Origin: Propionibacteriaceae bacterium
Lineage (GTDB): Bacteria; Actinomycetota; Actinomycetes; Propionibacteriales; Propionibacteriaceae
Assembly (NCBI GenBank): GCA_031266665.1
Contig: JAISAO010000067.1
Span: 1-48,709, forward strand
Length of the DNA stretch: 48,709 nt
Direction of reading: 5' to 3'
Under the pieces are notes generated by a model. The model was given only the letters and a program-made list of their open reading frames with translations. It had not been told where the DNA came from and searched no databases. The translations under genes were made by a program, and so were the position numbers. Shown here one piece after another: positions 19,609 through 48,709 of this stretch. Numbering within the stretch: position 1 is the stretch's first letter; the number at the start of each line of letters is the position of its first letter.

Positions 19609-19771
19609 CTAGATGGTTGATTCCAAGCCATGGGCTCGTCCTCACGCCCAGACGACAGGCCGGACGGCGTCCTCGTCGGTCGGCGATGCCCACATCGCCT
19701 CCCCCCTCTTCCTGGCCGGCCCGCCGTCTGAGCGCGAATCCATCGCCCAGCCCTTGGAATCAACCATCTAG
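19609..19771 (-). mobile_element. 163-bp miniature inverted-repeat element (copy B, reverse orientation)
   Basis: The ends are CTAGATGGTTGATTCCAAG and its complement. The interior matches copies C and D, including a central hairpin with 7-bp arms GGCGATG/CATCGCC. It encodes no protein. CTAG at both ends fits insertion at a CTAG target with TA duplication, as for IS630/Tc1-type elements. The right end supplies the last codons and the TGA stop of the PIN-domain gene. Confidence 0.85.
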
Positions 19772-20835: not shown

Positions 20836-20998
20836 CTAGATGGTTGATTCCAAGGGCTGGGCGATGGATTCGCGCTCAGGCGGCGGGCCGGCAAGGACGA
20901 TGAGGGAGGCGATGTGTGGCATCGCCGACCGACGATGACGCCGCCGGCGCGTTGTCTGGGCGTGAGGACGAGCCCATGGCTTGGAATTAACCATCTAG
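20836..20998 (+). mobile_element. 163-bp miniature inverted-repeat element (copy C)
   Basis: Left end CTAGATGGTTGATTCCAAG, right end complementary except for one base (GATT versus AATT). It has the same central GGCGATG/CATCGCC hairpin as the others. It lies 75 bp before the antitoxin start, in the opposite orientation to copy B on the other side of the module. Confidence 0.85.
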
Positions 20999-39572: not shown

Positions 39573-39860
39573 ATGCCCGAGTCCAAGAGCCGCGCCGCGG
39601 CCGACGACAAGCGCAAACTCAAGCGACACGAGCAGGTCCAGTCGGTCCAGCGCGAGAAAGCCCTCAAGGGGGCGCCCAACGAGCGCCGCTGGGTGCCGCC
39701 GCTGTTCATCGCCTGCGCCCTGCTGGGCGTCGTCTGGATCATCGTCTTCAGCGTCGCCGGCGGCTCGATCGCCTTCCTGAACTCACTGGGCAACTGGAAC
39801 ATGCTCATCGGCATGGGCCTGATCGCCTTGTCCTTCCTCTTGATGACCCTGTGGAAGTGA
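39573..39860 (+). CDS. crgA: CrgA, cell division protein
   Basis: 95 residues; ATG with GAAAGGTGG about 4 nt upstream. The N-terminal half is basic and helical (DDKRKLKRHEQVQSVQREKA). It is followed by the CrgA pattern of two close membrane helices: WVPPLFIACALLGVVWIIVF, then SVAGG and LGNWNMLIGMGLIALSFLLM, ending TLWK. CrgA sits at the septum, binds FtsZ/FtsI-type partners and helps regulate polar growth and division in actinobacteria. Position next to the pknB cluster is typical. Confidence 0.92.
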   Translation: MPESKSRAAADDKRKLKRHEQVQSVQREKALKGAPNERRWVPPLFIACALLGVVWIIVFSVAGGSIAFLNSLGNWNMLIGMGLIALSFLLMTLWK

Positions 39861-39907
39861 GCCGTCGACCCGGCCCGGCCAGTCGCCCGGCCCCCACGGA
39901 CTGACCG

Positions 39908-39933
39908 CGATCCCGGATCGCGCCCGGGACGAC
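39908..39933. repeat. REP-like intergenic palindrome (copy 3)
   Basis: TCCCGG and CCGGGA form the arms around ATCGCGC, followed by CGACG. It shares its arrangement with the copies at 5901, 7751 and 42143 but has diverged most. Confidence 0.4.
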
Positions 39934-40075
39934 GCCGGCCGACGTCGGCGCGGTTGGAGCCGGCCACGACATCCCTGCCCCGGGCTCGCCCCCCGGCCCG
40001 TCTCTACCCCACGGACCGCCCGCCCCGAAAGACCGGACGAGACTCCCCGCCGCCTGGTTGACGAGGCCCCGTTGA

Positions 40076-40238
40076 CTAGATGGTTAATTCCAAGGGCTGG
40101 GCGATGGATTCGCGCTCAGACGGCGGGCCGGCCAGGAAGAGGAGAGAGGCGATGTGTGGCATCGCCGACCGACGATAACGCCGCCGGCGCGTCGTCTGGG
40201 CGTGAGGACGAGCCCATGGCTTGGAATTAACCATCTAG
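40076..40238 (+). mobile_element. 163-bp miniature inverted-repeat element (copy D)
   Basis: Perfect 19-bp terminal repeats CTAGATGGTTAATTCCAAG, two direct CTGGGCG copies 99 bp apart (40097 and 40196) and the central hairpin GGCGATG (40148-40154)/CATCGCC (40160-40166). The right end stops 12 bp before the -35 box of the downstream candidate promoter. Confidence 0.87.
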
Positions 40239-40250
40239 ATCCCACCCACA

Positions 40251-40281
40251 TTGACGTTAGCGGGGGGGGGGGGGGTAACTT
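40251..40281 (+). promoter_or_regulatory. Candidate slippage-prone promoter with G14 spacer tract
   Basis: -35 TTGACG (40251-40256) and -10-like TAACTT (40276-40281) are separated by 19 bp, of which 14 are an unbroken G run (40262-40275). Loss of two G would give the optimal 17-bp spacing. The -10 box matches the strongly conserved T, A and final T positions only. It lies 72 bp upstream of the ABC exporter start. Confidence 0.5.
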
Positions 40282-40352
40282 TGGGCCATCTTGACGGACC
40301 GACCGTGAACTGAGGCCCGAGCCATCCGTCGCCCAAGCCGCAGGAGGCCGCC

Positions 40353-41309
40353 ATGCCCGTCACCCCCACCCAGTCGCGATCCCAGACCACGGCCGCCCCG
40401 CCTGGCGCCCTAGACCCCATCGTCTTGCGGGGTGTCCACAAACACTTCGCCGCCGTGCGGGCGGTCGACGGCGTCGACCTGACCGTGCGCGACGGCCAGG
40501 TGGTGGCCTTCCTGGGTCCCAACGGCGCCGGTAAGACCACCACCTTGGACATGGTCCTGGCCTTGTCCGACCCGACGGCGGGCACGGTCCAAGTCTTCGG
40601 CCAGGCGCCGCGACGGGCGGTCGACGCCGGTCTGGTGGCCGCCGTCACCCAGTCCGGCGGGCTGATCCCCAACGTCAGCGTCTGGCGGCATATCCGCCTG
40701 ATGGCCGACTTGTTTGGCTATCCGGTGGAGCGGGCGCGAGAGGTCATGGCCCAGACCAAGTTGGAGCCGCTGGCCAAACGCCAGACCAAGTTGTGCTCGG
40801 GCGGCGAGCGCCAACGGGTCAAGTTCGCCATGGCCCTGGTGACGCGCCCCCGCCTGCTGATCTTGGACGAGCCCACCACGGGCATGGACGTCAACGCCCG
40901 GCGCGACTTCTGGGCCGGGGTGCATGAGGCCGCCGACCAGGGCACGACGGTCCTCTTCGCCACCCACTACCTGGAGGAGGCGGACGAGTACGCCGACCGG
41001 GTGGTCATCTTGGTGGGCGGCCAGATCGTGGCCGACGGCTCCATCGGCGAGATCCGCAACCTGGTGTCGGGGCGGACCGTGACTTGTGAGTTCTCCAATC
41101 CGGACCAGGCCTCCACCGCCGCCGCCCTGGTCCAAGACCTGGTGGACTCGTCCCGCCTCCAAGGCTCGCAGCTGATCGTCCGCAGCCGTGACTCCGACGC
41201 CGTCTTGGAACGGCTGATCGTCCGACGAGCCGGGGCCCGCGACATCCTGGTCGCGGGCCAGAGCGTCGAAGACGTCTTCGTCGCCCTGACCGAGGGAGGC
41301 CAACGATGA
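40353..41309 (+). CDS. ABC exporter ATP-binding protein (DrrA-like)
   Basis: 318 residues; ATG with AGGAGG 5-6 nt upstream. Walker A FLGPNGAGKTTTLDMVLALS near residue 55, Q-loop AAVTQSGGLIPNVSVWRHIR, signature LCSGGERQRVKFAMAL (a variant of LSGGQ), Walker B LLILDEPTTGMD and the H-loop FATHYLEEADEYADR are present. The C-terminal ~80 residues (VSGRTVTCEFSNPDQASTAA) fit the DrrA-type regulatory tail. It energises the permease encoded just downstream (ATGA overlap). Substrate unknown; relatives export drugs, lipids or antibiotics. Expression may depend on the G14 promoter. Confidence 0.92.
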   Translation: MPVTPTQSRSQTTAAPPGALDPIVLRGVHKHFAAVRAVDGVDLTVRDGQVVAFLGPNGAGKTTTLDMVLALSDPTAGTVQVFGQAPRRAVDAGLVAAVTQSGGLIPNVSVWRHIRLMADLFGYPVERAREVMAQTKLEPLAKRQTKLCSGGERQRVKFAMALVTRPRLLILDEPTTGMDVNARRDFWAGVHEAADQGTTVLFATHYLEEADEYADRVVILVGGQIVADGSIGEIRNLVSGRTVTCEFSNPDQASTAAALVQDLVDSSRLQGSQLIVRSRDSDAVLERLIVRRAGARDILVAGQSVEDVFVALTEGGQR

Positions 41310-42097
41310 CCGCGCCGATAGTGGCCGCGTCTGGCACGGCGGCGACAGGCCGGCCGCGACGCCCGGGCTGGTACTTCCTCCGGCTGGAGGTCATCCGCGT
41401 CCTGACCAACGTCTCCACCCTGGTCTTCTGCTGCGCCATGCCCCTGGGCTTCTACCTCTTGTTCGGCGCGGCCTACGGCAAGGACCAGGCCGGCGTCGGC
41501 AACATGAACGCCGTCGTCTTGGCCATGATGGGCATCTACGGCGCCGTCATGACCGCCACGGCGCCGGCCTACACCCTGCCCACGGAGCGAGTCAGCGGCT
41601 GGAACCGCCAACTCCGGCTCACCCCGCTGCGGCCGCTGGTCTACGTCGGCGGCAAGGTGGCGGCGGCCGTGCTGTCGTCCCTGGCCTGCCTGATCGTCCT
41701 CTACGGCGTCGGGCTGGCCCTGCGCCAGGCCGAGATGCCGGCCTCCGTCTGGTTCGGCACCCTGGGGATCGCCTGGCTCGGGTCGCTGGGCTTCGCCGCC
41801 ATGGGCCTGTTCATCGGCCTGGTGATGCGCAAGGGCGAGCCGGCGGCGGTCATCGTGCCGATCACGCTGGTCTGCTCGTTCCTGTCGGACGCCTTCCAAC
41901 TGCCGGTGTCGGGGCGGATCTGGGACATCATCCAGAACATCGTGCCGATGGGCGGCCTGGTCCGCTGGTCCCAATCCCTGTTCGGCCCCGATATCGCCAC
42001 CACCGACTGGAAGGTCTGGGTCAACGTCGTCGGCTGGACTCTGATCTTCACCTTCTTGGCGGCCCTGGCCTTCAGCCGCGACAGCAAGCGGGGGTGA
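41306..42097 (+). CDS. ABC-2 type exporter permease
   Basis: 263 residues. Six hydrophobic segments are visible, beginning with STLVFCCAMPLGFYLLFGAA and including VVLAMMGIYGAVMTATAPAY, KVAAAVLSSLACLIVLYGVG and LGIAWLGSLGFAAMGLFIGL, and ending VVGWTLIFTFLAALAFSRDS. The RVSGWNRQLRLTPLRP segment is the cytoplasmic coupling loop typical of this family. It forms the membrane channel of the exporter together with a dimer of the ATPase. Start overlaps the ATPase stop by 4 nt. Confidence 0.92.
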   Translation: MTAPIVAASGTAATGRPRRPGWYFLRLEVIRVLTNVSTLVFCCAMPLGFYLLFGAAYGKDQAGVGNMNAVVLAMMGIYGAVMTATAPAYTLPTERVSGWNRQLRLTPLRPLVYVGGKVAAAVLSSLACLIVLYGVGLALRQAEMPASVWFGTLGIAWLGSLGFAAMGLFIGLVMRKGEPAAVIVPITLVCSFLSDAFQLPVSGRIWDIIQNIVPMGGLVRWSQSLFGPDIATTDWKVWVNVVGWTLIFTFLAALAFSRDSKRG

Positions 42098-42393: not shown

Positions 42394-43011
42394 ATGGCGC
42401 GCAAGGTCAAACCGCCGGAGCAGCGCAAGCTTGAGATCGTCGGCTCGGCCAAGCGTCTGTTCGGACTGCGGGGCTACGCCAAGACCACTATCACCGAGAT
42501 CATCGAGGACGCCGAGATCTCCAAGGGTCTGTTCTACTACTATTTCGGATCGAAAGAGGAGATCTTAGACGAGATCGTCAACCAGTTGGTCGAGGAGGAC
42601 GTGGCCGCCCTCAAAGTCTGCGCCGCCCGGCCGGCCCCCGCCCCGGACCGTCTGGTCGACATGGTGCGCCAGCACCGCGCCTTGTTCGTGCGCTCCGAGG
42701 GCCACATCAAATCCCAGCTGCGGGCCATCAACAACCCCGAGATCGGCATCCGCGCCATCCGCCTGGCCGTCGTCAGCCTGACCCCTCTGCTGGCGGACGT
42801 CGTCCGGGAGGGCCTGGCCGACGGCTGCTTCCAGGTGGACGATCCCGACGGGGCGGTCGAGCTGCTGCTGTTCGCCGCCACCTTCGAGGCCGCCTTCGGG
42901 CCGGCCCATCACGCCTCGAAGCGGGACCGGGCGCTGCTGATGATGATGGAGCGGACCCTGGGCGCCCCCCCCGGCGCCATGCTCTCCGTCGCCGCCCGGA
43001 CGACGGGCTGA
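42394..43011 (+). CDS. TetR-family transcriptional regulator of the citrate operon (predicted)
   Basis: 205 residues. The N-terminal HTH is standard: RKLEIVGSAKRLFGLRGYAK, TTITEIIEDAEISKGLFYYY and FGSKEEILDEIVNQL. The ligand domain (from about residue 65) is unlike named subfamilies. Operators in front of its own gene and of the citrate transporter indicate that it represses both, and the inducer could be citrate or a related metabolite. This is inferred from the shared palindromes, not from homology. It is on the same strand as the ABC exporter, but no operator copy is seen there. Confidence 0.9.
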   Translation: MARKVKPPEQRKLEIVGSAKRLFGLRGYAKTTITEIIEDAEISKGLFYYYFGSKEEILDEIVNQLVEEDVAALKVCAARPAPAPDRLVDMVRQHRALFVRSEGHIKSQLRAINNPEIGIRAIRLAVVSLTPLLADVVREGLADGCFQVDDPDGAVELLLFAATFEAAFGPAHHASKRDRALLMMMERTLGAPPGAMLSVAARTTG

Positions 43012-43388: not shown

Positions 43389-44756
43389 ATGCTGGCTATC
43401 TTCGGCCTGATCATCGTGGTCGGGTTCATGACCCTGATCATGACTAAAAAGGCCACCCCCTTCACCGCTTTGGCCCTGGTGCCGCTGCTGGTCGGTATCA
43501 TCACCGGCCTGATAAGCCGAACCGAGTACAGCGCCAGCGACATAGCCAAATTCGCCCTGGCCGGCCTGACCGGAAATTCCAGCCTCGACCACCCCGTCTC
43601 CGGCATCGCCGGCACGGCCATCATGTTGTTGTTCGCCATCTTGTACTTCGGCCTGATGCTGACGGCCGGCCTGTTCGACCCGGTGGTGGCCTTCATCTTG
43701 CGGATCGTCAAGGGCGACCCGCTCAAAGTCATGGTCGGCACCGCCGTCTTGGCCTTGGCCGTGTCGGTCGACGGCGACGGCTCGACCACCACCTTGGTGG
43801 TCTGCTCGGCCCTGATACCGGTCTACAAACAACTTAAAATGAAGATGATGGACTTGGCCGTCATCATCATCTTGGGCAATTCGATCATGAACCTGCTGCC
43901 CTGGGGCGGGCCGACCGCCCGCATCATCAGCGCCCTCGGCGTCGACGAGGGCGTGCTGCTGCGCAAGATCGTCCCCGGCATGTTGATCGCCTCCGTCTGG
44001 GTCATCGCCGTGGCCTTCATCCGAGGCCGGGCCGAGCGCAAGCGCCTGGGCGTGGTGACGCAGACCGAGGCCGACATCGCCGAGGTCCGGGCCCAGCAGC
44101 ACGCCACCGACGCCGAGTTGAGCCGCCCCAAGATGATTTGGTTCAACCTGGCGCTGACCGTGGTCATGCTGGTCATCTTGATCTTCGGCGACATCTGGAT
44201 CATCCCCAAGGTCAACGCGGCGGTCATCTTCGCCGTCGGCCTGGCCATCGCCATGACGATCAACTACCGCTCGCTCAAAAACCAGCGCGAGATCATCGAG
44301 AAATACGGCTCGTCGGCCCTGCACGTCGTCATCATGGTCTTGGGCGCCGGCATCTTCATGGGCATACTGATCGGCACCGGCATGAGCGACGCCATGGGCC
44401 GGGCGCTGGCCGATTGGATGCCGGACTTCCTGGGCAGCCACTGGGCCATCGTCACCGCCGTGGTGTCGGCCCCCGGGACCTTCCTGCTGAGCAACGACGC
44501 CTTCTATTACGGCGTGCTGCCGGTGCTGAACGAGGTCGGCCTGAAGAACGGTTTCGAGGCGATGGACATGGCCGTGGCCTCGACCGTCGGCCAGGCCTTC
44601 CACCTGCTCAGCCCGCTGGTCGGCTTCATCTACCTGCTGCTCCACCTGACCGGCGTCGACATGGGCGCCTGGCAGCGCAAGACGGCCAAGTGGGCCCTGG
44701 GCACCTTCGCCATCTTCCTGCTCAGCATTCTCACCTTCGGGGGGGTGCCGGCGTAG
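43389..44756 (+). CDS. CitMHS-family metal-citrate:proton symporter
   Basis: 455 residues; ATG with AAAGGAG about 9 nt upstream (longer frame rejected, it would begin before the operators). Twelve or so membrane segments; family blocks include FAILYFGLMLTAGLFDPVVA, the conserved LAVSVDGDGSTTTLVVCSAL, NSIMNLLPWGGPTARIISAL and the C-terminal LLSNDAFYYGVLPVLNEVGL. CitMHS proteins import citrate complexed with Mg2+ or another divalent ion together with protons. The gene heads the citrate operon behind the double operator, so uptake is switched on with the lyase. Its use in place of CitS-type Na+ carriers or CitT-type antiporters is less usual for citrate fermentation. Confidence 0.93.
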   Translation: MLAIFGLIIVVGFMTLIMTKKATPFTALALVPLLVGIITGLISRTEYSASDIAKFALAGLTGNSSLDHPVSGIAGTAIMLLFAILYFGLMLTAGLFDPVVAFILRIVKGDPLKVMVGTAVLALAVSVDGDGSTTTLVVCSALIPVYKQLKMKMMDLAVIIILGNSIMNLLPWGGPTARIISALGVDEGVLLRKIVPGMLIASVWVIAVAFIRGRAERKRLGVVTQTEADIAEVRAQQHATDAELSRPKMIWFNLALTVVMLVILIFGDIWIIPKVNAAVIFAVGLAIAMTINYRSLKNQREIIEKYGSSALHVVIMVLGAGIFMGILIGTGMSDAMGRALADWMPDFLGSHWAIVTAVVSAPGTFLLSNDAFYYGVLPVLNEVGLKNGFEAMDMAVASTVGQAFHLLSPLVGFIYLLLHLTGVDMGAWQRKTAKWALGTFAIFLLSILTFGGVPA

Positions 44757-44840
44757 TCGCGGGGACGGTCCCCAAGCCGGGGGCCGGTGAGCGGCGGCCG
44801 CCGCCCGCCGGCCCCCGGTCGGGAGCGACACGAGAACGAT

Positions 44841-45986
44841 ATGGACGACATCGTCATCACCAGCTGGGCCCCGGGGTCGGACCCGGTGGACCCGGTGGAC
44901 CAGGCGGTCCCGGCGGCCGTGGCCGGGCTGCTGGAGCGGGCCGGGCTCGGCCTGGAGGCCGACGTCGAGGTCTGGGCCCTGGCCCGCCGCGACGGCCGGC
45001 TGGTCGGCTGCATGGGCCTGGCCGGCGACCTGGTCAAGGACGTGGTCGTGGACCAGGGGCTGCGCGGCCACAATCTGATGGCCGGGCTGCTGACCGAGTT
45101 GCGCCACCAGGCCGTCGCCCGCGGCCGGACCCGGTTGAGTTGCTACACCCGGCCGTCCCTGGCCGCCGTCTTCGCCTCCCTCGGCTTCCGCGCCCTGGCC
45201 CAGGCCGACGGCCTGGCCGTCCTGATGGAGGACGACCCCCGCGGCGTCGAGCGCTACCAGGCCGACCTGGCCGCCTCCCGGCGGGAGGGGGAGCGCATCG
45301 CCGCGGTGGTGCTCAACGCCAACCCCTTCTCCCTGGGCCACCAGCACCTGCTGCGCCTAGCCGCCCGCGACTGCGACCTGGTCCACGTCTTCGTGCTGGG
45401 GGAGGACCGCTCCCAGTTCAGCCCGGCCGAGCGTTTCGCCCTGGTCCGGGACGGCTTGGCGGCGCTGCCGGAGCACGACCGCTTCGTGCTCCACCCGGGC
45501 TCGCGCTACATCGTCTCCCGCCTGACCTTCCCCCAATATTTCCTCAAAGACCAGGCCGACATCGCCCGCGCCCACGCCGGCATCGACCTGCAGCTGTTCC
45601 GCCAGCGCGTCGCCCCCGTCCTGGGCATCCGCCACCGTTTCGTCGGCAGCGAGCCGACCAGCCGGATCACGGCCCACTACAACCAGGAGATGAGGCGCTG
45701 GCTGCAGTCTCCCCAGGCGGACTGGCCGACCATCGAGGTGCATCAGGTGGAACGGCTGGAGGTGGGCGGGCGGCCCGTCTCGGCCACGCGCGTCCGCCAG
45801 GCGCTGGCGGCCGGCCGGTTCGACCAGTTGGCCGAGCTGGTGCCGGCGACCACCTGGGACTACCTGGTCCGCCGCCCGCCCCGGGCCGAGCCCGCGCCCT
45901 TGGGGCCGCCCGCCCCGCCCCGCCGGCAGGGCGGCCGAAGCCAGCCGCCCGACGACCACCGACAAGCCAAGGAGCTGTCATGCTAA
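44841..45986 (+). CDS. citC: [Citrate (pro-3S)-lyase] ligase CitC
   Basis: 381 residues. The N-terminal GNAT-like part (GCMGLAGDLVKDVVVDQGLR) precedes the nucleotidyltransferase domain: LNANPFSLGHQHLLRLAARD (GHxxL nucleotide motif), HVFVLGEDRSQFSPAERFAL, HPGSRYIVSRLTFPQYFLKD and PVSATRVRQALAAGRF. It acetylates the thiol of the prosthetic group on CitD with acetate and ATP, which activates the lyase. The last ~20 residues ([17 protein letters not shown]) are encoded by the first unit of a 56-bp tandem duplication. ATG at 44841 begins directly before the family region; there is no strong SD. Confidence 0.92.
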   Translation: MDDIVITSWAPGSDPVDPVDQAVPAAVAGLLERAGLGLEADVEVWALARRDGRLVGCMGLAGDLVKDVVVDQGLRGHNLMAGLLTELRHQAVARGRTRLSCYTRPSLAAVFASLGFRALAQADGLAVLMEDDPRGVERYQADLAASRREGERIAAVVLNANPFSLGHQHLLRLAARDCDLVHVFVLGEDRSQFSPAERFALVRDGLAALPEHDRFVLHPGSRYIVSRLTFPQYFLKDQADIARAHAGIDLQLFRQRVAPVLGIRHRFVGSEPTSRITAHYNQEMRRWLQSPQADWPTIEVHQVERLEVGGRPVSATRVRQALAAGRFDQLAELVPATTWDYLVRRPPRAEPAPLGPPAPPRRQGGRSQPPDDHRQAKELSC

Positions 45987-46042
45987 GCGGCCGAAGCCAG
46001 CCGACCGGCGACCACCGACCAGCCAAGGAGCCGCCATGCTAA
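45931..46042 (+). repeat. 56-bp tandem duplication at the citC/citD junction
   Basis: Unit 1 is 45931-45986 and unit 2 is 45987-46042, about 50 of 56 bases identical. Both contain CCAAGGAG and end with ATGCTAA. In unit 1 TAA ends citC; in unit 2 ATG starts citD. Confidence 0.93.
45980..46042 (+). CDS. 20-codon relay ORF between citC and citD
   Basis: ATG at 45980 has CCAAGGAG upstream. The ORF encodes [20 protein letters not shown] and stops at 46040-46042. Its start overlaps the citC stop and its stop overlaps the citD start by the same 7-base ATGCTAA. Its peptide repeats the sense of the citC tail. It may be translated and so couple citD to citC; no own function is expected. Confidence 0.55.
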
Positions 46043-46335
46043 TCAGCCGCCCGGCCGTGGCCGGGACCCTGGAGTCCGGCGACGCCACGGTCCGGATCAC
46101 GCCCCACGACAGCTTGGAGGTGGTCGTCACCAGCAGCGTCGAGGCGCAATACGGCGATGCCGTCCGCCGGGTTGTCCGACAGACCTTGGAAGGCCTCGGC
46201 GTGGCCCGCGCCCTGGTGACGGTGACCGACAAGGGGGCGCTCGACTACGCCCTGCGGGCCAGGGTCGAGGCGGCCGTGATGCGGGCCGGCGACGAGCCGG
46301 TCGACTGGGACGTCCTGATCGGGGGGGAGCGATGA
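46036..46335 (+). CDS. citD: Citrate lyase acyl carrier subunit (gamma) CitD
   Basis: 99 residues, the usual length. The N-terminus [20 protein letters not shown] holds the Ser (LESGD) that carries the phosphoribosyl-dephospho-CoA prosthetic group. Later blocks ([40 protein letters not shown]) match the family. The acetylated thiol arm swings between CitF and CitE. Start at 46036 lies in the second unit of the 56-bp duplication with CCAAGGAG 5 nt upstream; the stop overlaps citE (ATGA). Confidence 0.94.
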
Positions 46336-47291
46336 CCGACGTCCTCAACCCGCCGGCGGCCACGCTCGACGCCGCCCAGCCGGCCTGGGGCAAGTACGAC
46401 CAGGCCGCGGCCCCGCCCCACCGCTCGGCCCTGTTCGTGCCGGCCTCGAACGCCGCCATGCTGGCGACGGCCTGGGTCTACGGGGCCGACCTCTACATGT
46501 TCGACCTGGAGGACGCCGTCGCCCTGCGGGAGAAGGACTCGGCCCGCCTGCTGGCGATCAACGCCCTGACCAGCTACCCGTGGCGCGACATGGCGGTGGC
46601 GGTCAGGGTCAACGGCATCGACACGCCCTTCTTCGCCGACGACCTCCAAGCCGTCGTCCGGGCCGGGGCCGACATGGTGCGCCTGCCCATGACCGACAGC
46701 GCCGAGCTGGTCCACCGCCTGGACGCCGAGCTGACCGCCATCGAGCGGGCCTGCTCCAGGCCGGTCGGCTCGACCAAAGTGATAGCCGCCATCGAGTCGG
46801 CCGCCGGCGTCGTCAACGCCTCCGCCATCGCCTTGGCCAGCCCCAGAGTCGTGGCCATCGCCCTGGCCGGCTTCGACTACCTGTTGGACATGGGGGCCGA
46901 GCCCACCCAGGACGGCTCGGAGCTGTTCTACGCCCGCTGCGCCGTCCTCCACGCCGCCCGGGCGGCGGGCGTCTGGTGCTACGACGTGGTCTGGGGCGAC
47001 GTCGACGACGAGGCCGGCTTCCGGGCCGAGGTCGAGCTGGTCAAACACCTCGGCTTCGACGGCAAGACCCTGGTCAACCCGCGCCAAATCCCCTGGTTGC
47101 ACGAGGCCTACTCGCCCACCGCCGCCGAGCTGGCCCGGGCCGAGCGCGTCGTCCGGGCCGCCGAGGCCGCCCGCGACCGCGGCCTGGGCGTCATCGCGGT
47201 CGACGGCAAGATGGTCGACGGCCCCATCGTCCAAGCGGCCCGCCGCGCCATCGCCTATGCCGCAGCCTCCGGCGTCAGGGAGGACCGATGA
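46332..47291 (+). CDS. citE: Citrate lyase beta subunit (citryl-lyase) CitE
   Basis: 319 residues. HpcH/HpaI-type TIM-barrel motifs: [40 protein letters not shown] (metal-binding acidic cluster), [12 protein letters not shown] (substrate Arg), [20 protein letters not shown] (metal Glu), [20 protein letters not shown] and [20 protein letters not shown]. It splits citryl-CitD into oxaloacetate and acetyl-CitD. It overlaps both citD and citF by ATGA, so subunits are made in step. Confidence 0.95.
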
Positions 47292-48709
47292 ACCAGCCCC
47301 GTCCCGCCGCCTCCAAGATCTGCTCATCCTTGGAGGAGGCGGTCAAACGCTCCGGCCTGGCCGACGGCGGCACCATCAGCTTCCACCACCACTTCCGCGA
47401 GGGCGACCAGGTGATGTTGGCCGTGGTCGCCGAGCTGGCCCGCCTCGGCCTGCGCGACCTGACCCTGGCCCCGTCGTCGCTGGGAGCCTGCCACGCCGGG
47501 CTGATCGAGTTCATCCGCCGAGGCGTCATCACCCAGATCTACACCTCCGGCCTGCGCGGCCAGCTGGCCGAGGCCGTCTCCCACGGGCTGATGGACCGGC
47601 CGGTCCAGCTCCACTCTCACGGCGGGCGCTGCGCCCTCATCCAGTCGGGCGAGATCAAAATCGACGTGGCCTTCCTGGGGGTCTCGGCCTGCGACCGGCT
47701 GGGCAACGCCAACGGCGTCACCGGGCGGTCGCCCTGCGGCTCGCTGGGCTACGCCCAGGTCGACGCCCAGCACGCCCGCGGCGTCGTGCTGGTGACCGAG
47801 CAGCTGGTGGACTACCCCAACCAGCCGGCCTCGATCCGCCAGGACCAGGTCGATTGGATCGTCCAGCTGCCGGCCGTGGGCGACCCGGCCAAGATCAGCA
47901 GCGGCGCCGCCCGCGTCACGACCGATCCCCGGGAACTGCTGATCGCCCGCCACGCGGCCGAGGTGATGGCGGCCTCCGGGCTGTTCGTCGATGGCTTCTC
48001 GCTCCAGACCGGCTCCGGCGCGGCGGCCATCGCCACCACCCGCCACCTGCGCCGCAAGATGGCCCACCGCCGGGTCAAGGCCGCCTGGGCGCTGGGCGGA
48101 ATCACGGCCGACATCGTCGAGCTGGCCCAAGACGGCTGGCTGGACCGGATCGTCGACGTCCAGGACTTCGACGTCCAAGCGGCCGAGGATCTGCGGACGA
48201 ACCCGCGCCACCACGAGATCAGCGCCGCCGAGTACGCCAACCCCATCGGCAAGGGGGCCTGCGTGGACGAGTTGGACCTGGTGATCTTGTCGGCCCTGGA
48301 GGTCGACCTGGATTTCAACGTCAATGTCCTGACCGGCTCCGACGGCGTCATGCGGGGGGCCTCCGGCGGGCACTGCGACACCGCCGCCGGGGCCAAGCTG
48401 GCCATCGTGGTGGCGCCGCTGCTGCGCTCGCGCATCCCCACCGTGGTGCGGCGGGTCACGACCAAGGTGACGCCGGGGCGCGACGTCGGCGTGCTCGTGA
48501 CCGACGCCGGCATCGCCGTCAACCCTGATCGGCCGGAACTGGCCGAGCGGCTGCGCCAGGCCCGCCTGCCGGTGGTGGCGCTGGAGGATCTGCACGAGCG
48601 CTCCCTCAAGATCGCCGGCCGGCCCCGGCCGTTGGAGTTCGACGACAAGGTGGTGGGCGTGGTGCGCTACCGCGACGGGTCGATCCTGGACACGGTCCGC
48701 CAGGTGGCC
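47288..48709 (+). CDS. citF: Citrate lyase alpha subunit (citrate CoA-transferase type) CitF, 3' end outside window
   Basis: 474 codons are seen without a stop; the family is usually near 510, so about 35 are missing. Family blocks: [120 protein letters not shown], and [20 protein letters not shown]. It exchanges acetyl for citryl on CitD. ATG overlaps the citE stop. citX and citG, needed for the prosthetic group, are not in the window and would be expected downstream or elsewhere. Confidence 0.95.

Follow-up and report, generated by a model that had tools for sequence, protein, structure and literature searches.

A run of 14 guanines lying between two promoter-like hexamers, upstream of an ABC-2 type exporter operon in a Propionibacteriaceae bacterium, is probably the spacer of a housekeeping-sigma promoter, with a length that changes by slippage and exporter levels that would vary from cell to cell. 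The site itself is seen in one assembly. A slippage-controlled promoter is supported because the same arrangement recurs across the genus and because homopolymers occur at the orthologous exporter in relatives. The preliminary description had proposed a phase-variable exporter promoter acting through spacer slippage. Our comparison, which found TTGAC-Gn-TANNNT genus-wide and homopolymers at the exporter of three relatives, strengthens that proposal, whereas promoter activity, slippage, the switching itself and its effect on export at the G14 site are what we still infer.

Anatomy of the G14 promoter-like site

The window analyzed here is the whole 48.7-kb stretch of DNA (72% GC), which is a single contig out of the 106 in a 3.28-Mb genome (G000). 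On its forward strand, a −35-like hexamer, TTGACG (positions 40251–40256), is followed by TTAGC (40257–40261), the G14 homopolymer (40262–40275), and a −10-like hexamer, TAACTT (40276–40281), which fits the pattern TANNNT. The spacer between the hexamers is 19 bp long (5 + 14), the tract accounting for 14 of its 19 bases, and the ATG of the exporter ATPase gene, at 40353, lies 72 bp from 40281. These elements and distances are exactly as first described, and two further statements of the preliminary description held: a mobile element ends 12 bp before the −35 box (at 40238, with TTGACG starting at 40251), and the tract is the longest in the window, where the next-longest G/C runs are of 8. On the same strand, a ribosome-binding site, AGGAGG (40342–40347), precedes the ATG by 5 nt.

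The −35-like assignment draws on the recurrence of TTGAC before G tracts in the genus, and the −10-like assignment on a similar recurrence of TANNNT and on the local sequence: in the 114 bp between the end of the mobile element and the ATG (40239–40352), TAACTT is the sole TANNNT, and TTGAC occurs twice, at 40251 and 40291. TAACTT matches TATAAT at three of six positions. A strict sigma-70 scan of positions 39850–40420 (spacer of 16–18, at least 4/6 matches per box) returned no promoter, because the spacer is 19 bp long and the −10 hexamer falls short of four matches; a terminator scan of the same interval found none. Rfam searches of the whole window at gathering thresholds yielded one tRNA only and no conserved RNA element at the tract. 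The site nevertheless has the features of the promoter-spacer type: the homopolymer lies between recognizable −35 and −10 boxes, of which the −10 box is weak; downstream of it, in the same orientation, lies a gene preceded by a ribosome-binding site; and the arrangement recurs in the lineage beyond chance, as the counts below indicate. A location of the tract within the exporter coding region, in the manner of two relatives described below, was considered and rejected: the open frame extends 13 codons above the ATG (331 versus 318 codons) and does not reach the tract.

In the mechanism that we propose, a housekeeping-sigma promoter of the form TTGACG-19-TAACTT would transcribe the exporter ATPase and permease genes, and slipped-strand mispairing at replication would add Gs to the G14 tract or remove them from it. 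A 14-G tract gives a spacer of 19 bp, for which weak promoter activity is expected; at 13 or 12 Gs the spacer would shrink to 18 or 17 bp, close to optimal. Higher- and lower-exporter cells would then coexist in a clonal population.

The exporter operon and its neighborhood

The ATPase encoded at 40353–41309 (+ strand; P0001) is DrrA-like and matches Pfam ABC_tran (1.7e-28). The following gene (41306–42097, + strand; P0002) encodes an ABC-2 type permease (Pfam ABC2_membrane, 1e-9), its start overlapping the ATPase stop by 4 bp. An ATPase of PF00005 thus stands beside a permease of PF01061, both above cut-offs, as in ABC-2 exporters. The pair is DrrAB-like and is not filed as a member of the DrrAB daunorubicin exporter subfamily, the scores being under the cut-offs of both TIGR01188 (206.6 bits for P0001 versus 312.45) and TIGR00025 (28.4 versus 146.9 bits). 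The best bacterial PDB relative of the ATPase is Rv1218c, an efflux-system ATPase (2.1e-39), with human ABCA proteins ranking ahead of it; for the permease, no solved-structure relative was found at E 0.01. The next gene (42394–43011, + strand; P0003) encodes a TetR-family regulator (Pfam TetR_N, 2e-15). To the right of the TetR gene, at 43389–48706, lie a citrate transporter gene and genes that Pfam assigns to the ligase, acyl carrier, and beta and alpha subunits of citrate lyase.

To the left of the tract, Pfam matches identify an FHA-domain protein, a PP2C phosphatase, RodA/FtsW, a penicillin-binding protein, and a PASTA kinase, followed as the last gene by crgA (39573–39860, + strand; P0004; Pfam CrgA, 1e-23). 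The crgA locus was rejected as the owner of the tract, since none of the 11 crgA regions fetched from relatives contains a run of 9 or more. In these regions, which represent 11 of the 18 remaining genomes of the genus and extend 3.6–9.7 kb beyond crgA, no permease match was found, and the ABC ATPases present are only distant (25–30% identity). An exporter beside crgA was found in the window species only. By this comparison of gene neighborhoods, the tract is assigned to the exporter and not to crgA.

The mobile element lies between crgA and the promoter-like site (40076–40238, + strand). It is 163 bp long, multi-copy, and bounded by terminal inverted repeats with 27-nt arms at 89%, and is therefore MITE-like. 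At least 40 copies, the window copy included, are present in G000 at 90–100% identity, two of them shortened to 137 bp, and three are in the window (40076–40238, 20836–20998, and 19609–19771). Elsewhere in the genus only weak relatives were found, in 3 of the 18 other genomes (G007, G009, and G012). The ends of the family read CTAGATGGTTAATTCC..., and among the copies listed the flanks outside CTAG differ from copy to copy at both ends, with no repeat outside CTAG..CTAG; the duplicated target might be CTAG, or TA, itself. The suggestion that the element had brought the promoter context did not survive this comparison: it stops 12 bp short of TTGACG, the promoter-like site is outside its bounds, and its right flanks differ among copies. 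TTGAC is found no more than 25 nt from the right end in 2 of the 35 matches listed, a count that includes the window and in which some copies appear in both orientations.

Moving left from the tract, the multi-copy element is reached after just 24 bp, and the left neighborhood could be misjoined. This bears on a possible error of sequencing or assembly, in the run itself or in its length, which we consider highly improbable. Seven of the 17 tracts of 10 or more Gs in G000 are no farther than 150 bp from the end of a contig, and in other genomes several tracts are embedded in low-complexity debris where contigs end. Against an artefact, the G14 tract is interior to a 48.7-kb contig, lies between matching promoter boxes, and leads straight into the exporter gene, and other genomes show this arrangement too. 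A misjoin through the element, by which the adjacency of crgA and the exporter may have arisen, would leave the link between tract and exporter, to the right of the element, untouched. Homopolymers seem to break the G000 assembly, and real tracts may be undercounted; because of this tendency, the length of the tract is best given as about 14, a figure that may be off. The G000 contigs that have such tracts near their ends are C23, C56, C68, C73, C77, and C92.

Recurrence of the arrangement in the genus

In a window of 72% GC, the length of the run is by itself only moderately surprising. With the tract shortened to G4 in the training sequence, simulations of the window produced a G/C run of 14 or more 12 times out of 200 at first order and never at orders 2, 3, and 5 (200 runs each). 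Of 100 dinucleotide shuffles, 8 contained at least three overlapping G12 matches, the number observed. The position of the run, in contrast to its length, is strong evidence. A chance run in GC-rich intergenic DNA with coincidental boxes, which these first-order simulations and shuffles and the weak −10 box would allow, is quite improbable in our judgement, given that G tracts throughout the genus are associated with TTGAC upstream and TANNNT downstream and that homopolymers recur at the same exporter in relatives.

The association is apparent in several counts. TTGAC followed by 3–22 bases, nine Gs, and a non-G occurs at 12 sites in 8 of the 19 genus genomes, compared with 3 sites for the reversed pattern; the other 179 genomes of the family contain 20 versus 8. 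A narrower TTGAC-G pattern gave 13 distinct sites in the genus, one of them at a contig end, versus 2 in controls. A G9 run abutting TANNNT was found 9 times in the genus and never in reversed controls; of these nine, G010:C13:1 and G005:C21:78 fall at a contig end or close to one, and G002:C39 is a tract within codons read on the antisense strand.

The spacing between the boxes gives the sharpest contrast. TANNNT is present at a spacing of 15–22 in 10 of the 12 TTGAC sites with at least nine Gs and in 20 of the 811 TTGAC sites without a tract (Fisher p 5e-14), a range chosen after the sites had been seen, with the window site among the 12. The 823 distinct TTGAC sites come from the fetched genus DNA, so that the background is whatever DNA was fetched. 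For TTGACA without a tract, the corresponding figure is 8 of 102. The ten spacings are 16, 16, 18, 19, 19, 19, 20, 22, 22, and 22, and the remaining 2 of the 12 sites are without TANNNT in the range. The tract excess extends to C as well as G and is larger for G: TTGAC followed by C9 was found 7 times versus 2 in the control, one of the seven being the far side of a G005 tract already counted among the G sites.

Seven of the 12 G sites (L265, L266, L267, L268, L269, L272, and G000:C88) precede open reading frames with N-termini that, judged by eye, resemble signal peptides. The codon-based gene caller served well for the window genome but poorly for several relatives, whose downstream genes were read from ATG/GTG frames. 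The TTGAC-G9..15 sites at L265–L269 and L272 possibly mark a genus-wide set of secreted proteins under slippage control.

Several individual tracts deserve description. G000 has a second promoter-type tract, TTGACA-CAC-G15-AAGATT (C88:160850–160874; L042, L238), from which an ATG 11 nt downstream opens a 346-aa reading frame that looks lipoprotein-like by eye. At G005:C14:37446–37480, a G11 tract is flanked on both sides by inward-pointing TTGAC, such that a promoter is readable on either strand. At G002:C39 (L187, 1514–1526), a C13 tract lies a few codons past an ATG with a likely ribosome-binding site, and the reading frame is out of frame as assembled. G078, which we guess to be a Cutibacterium, contains TTGACAAAATCGC-G14.

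Homopolymers at the orthologous exporter

Both exporter genes are present side by side in all six close relatives compared, namely five members of the genus (G007, G014, G015, G017, and G018) and a Propionibacteriaceae MAG (L081), with the ATPases 53–61% and the permeases 37–63% identical to those of the window. In the DNA retrieved for these six, no TetR gene was found adjoining the exporter. The nearest named relatives of the window exporter are metagenome-assembled Propionibacteriaceae. A tree built from 33 members of the set of 85 ATPases collected places the six relatives and the window in two groups, supported at 95/93 and 92/89, alongside 23 further actinobacterial sequences; the fork that joins the two groups is unsupported.

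A homopolymer lies near the exporter start in three of the six close relatives (G007, G014, and G015) versus none of 75 other relatives. The survey covered the best 80 of 189 loci and returned runs in L078 (G007) and L082 (G015); that of G014 was found separately. No such run is present at the exporter start of G017, G018, or L081, and the 75 loci outside the group contain no G/C run of 8 or more and no A/T run of 9 or more between −400 and +150 of the match start. Calculated by hand, the probability of 3/6 versus 0/75 is 20/85,320 (~2e-4), and that of two G/C runs of 10 or more in six 550-bp windows, at the G000 density of 17 G10+ tracts per 3.28 Mb, is ~1e-4.

The three tracts are built differently. 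In G015, a G8 run begins inside TTGCGG, which is followed by a 17-bp spacer, TAGCCT, and, 6 nt on, the ATG; this run likely lies within a promoter, with the ATG placed as in a leaderless transcript. In G007, a G10 run extends from codon 8 of a frame that opens with ATG, and in G014 a C14 run is found about ten codons past an ATG, the upstream start being out of frame as assembled in both. Past the tract, the exporter is open to its final stop, over 297 codons in G014 and in a 309-codon open frame in G007. In the frame of the G007 exporter, there is no ATG, GTG, or TTG before two GTGs located 4–5 codons ahead of the Walker A motif; in G014, there is no in-frame start above the tract, and GTGs follow it at codons 14 and 20, with Walker A at codon 34. 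A GTG past the tract could serve as the start of a shortened product in G014 and also, 5 codons before Walker A, in G007. Because their position and base differ between species, the exporter tracts look independently gained. A second tract is present at the G014 locus (L225, 4621–4633; G014:C19), a G13 run on the exporter strand approximately 440 bp upstream of C14 and near a contig end.

Reversible switching versus a static spacer

The tract might instead be a real but static promoter spacer, with slow drift between lineages setting the exporter level and no reversible switching within a population. Passages of a study of Cutibacterium acnes lend this reading some weight, since tract lengths there match the clades and the authors suggest slow accumulation, not active modification (Scholz 2016, PMC4746626). 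We nonetheless regard a static spacer as rather unlikely here. In G007 and G014, the starts ahead of the tract are out of frame, yet the remainder of each gene reads through to its final stop; drift accounts for this less readily than do switching genes sampled in the off state. The spacers in the genus are, moreover, spread over 16–22.

With slippage control of the promoter as the preferred reading, a broader hypothesis suggests itself, on which our judgement is evenly balanced. In the genus and its closest kin, one DrrAB-like exporter would have come repeatedly and independently under slippage control through different elements, by a promoter G tract in the window and in G015 (G8) and by tracts within codons in G007 (G) and G014 (C). 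Export would then be a bet-hedging trait selected repeatedly, and the slippage promoters of the genus at large would mostly serve secreted proteins.

The sample codes of two relatives point to a habitat. In published work, Md513, carried by G015 (L082), is the code of MAGs obtained from guts of the termite Mastotermes darwiniensis (PMC12483993), and Nc150, carried by L081, stands for the termite Nasutitermes corniger (PMC7024585). From these codes, the window bacterium probably also comes from a termite gut. Work on phase variation has concentrated on human pathogens and, for the most part, on surface proteins. Here, the same logic would operate in uncultured, probably insect-gut bacteria and would act on an exporter; if this is true, heterogeneity of the exporter is under selection in that habitat.

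Comparison with known systems

The promoter tract of porA in Neisseria meningitidis is poly-G. Changes in −35/−10 spacing or in the size of a promoter homopolymer are reported to alter the expression of meningococcal porA and opc (van der Ende 1995 and Sarkari 1994, both cited in PMC5084427), and a size-variable promoter spacing or homopolymer of this kind is what we propose for the window tract. Unlike our site, which is known from sequence alone, those systems were established experimentally, and they control outer-membrane proteins in an unrelated bacterium.

The closest parallel is found within the same family. Passages on PPA1880 of C. acnes describe tracts of 11, 13, and 15 Gs that give putative spacers of 18, 20, and 23, with secretion only at 18, and also offer an N-terminal frameshift reading of the tract (Holland 2010, PMC3224659). 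As in the window, a G tract in a putative promoter spacer is proposed to set expression; unlike the window tract, which precedes an ABC-2 exporter in one assembly, that of PPA1880 precedes a secreted putative adhesin, and its length differences between strains were demonstrated. A wider survey of C. acnes, in its main-text passages, reports 54 variable homopolymeric tracts, nearly all of G/C and mostly upstream of genes, and names no ABC exporter switch (Scholz 2016, PMC4746626). One of them, HPT_37, lies between the −35 and −10 boxes of a leaderless gene and is associated with a 2-fold expression difference (PMC4746626); it resembles the window tract in occupying a promoter spacer but consists of only 5 or 7 Cs. 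Gardnerella, like the window host an Actinobacterium with G/C tracts, has many variable ones, ~70% of them upstream of ORFs; unlike in the window, no promoter-spacer exporter case appears in the passages of that report (PMC11287997).

A literature search on phase-variable ABC transporters and on homopolymers in Actinomycetota found no exporter precedent. A homopolymer switch in a promoter spacer is of a known kind, and what is likely new, judging from this search, is the repeated occurrence of differently built putative homopolymer switches on one exporter.
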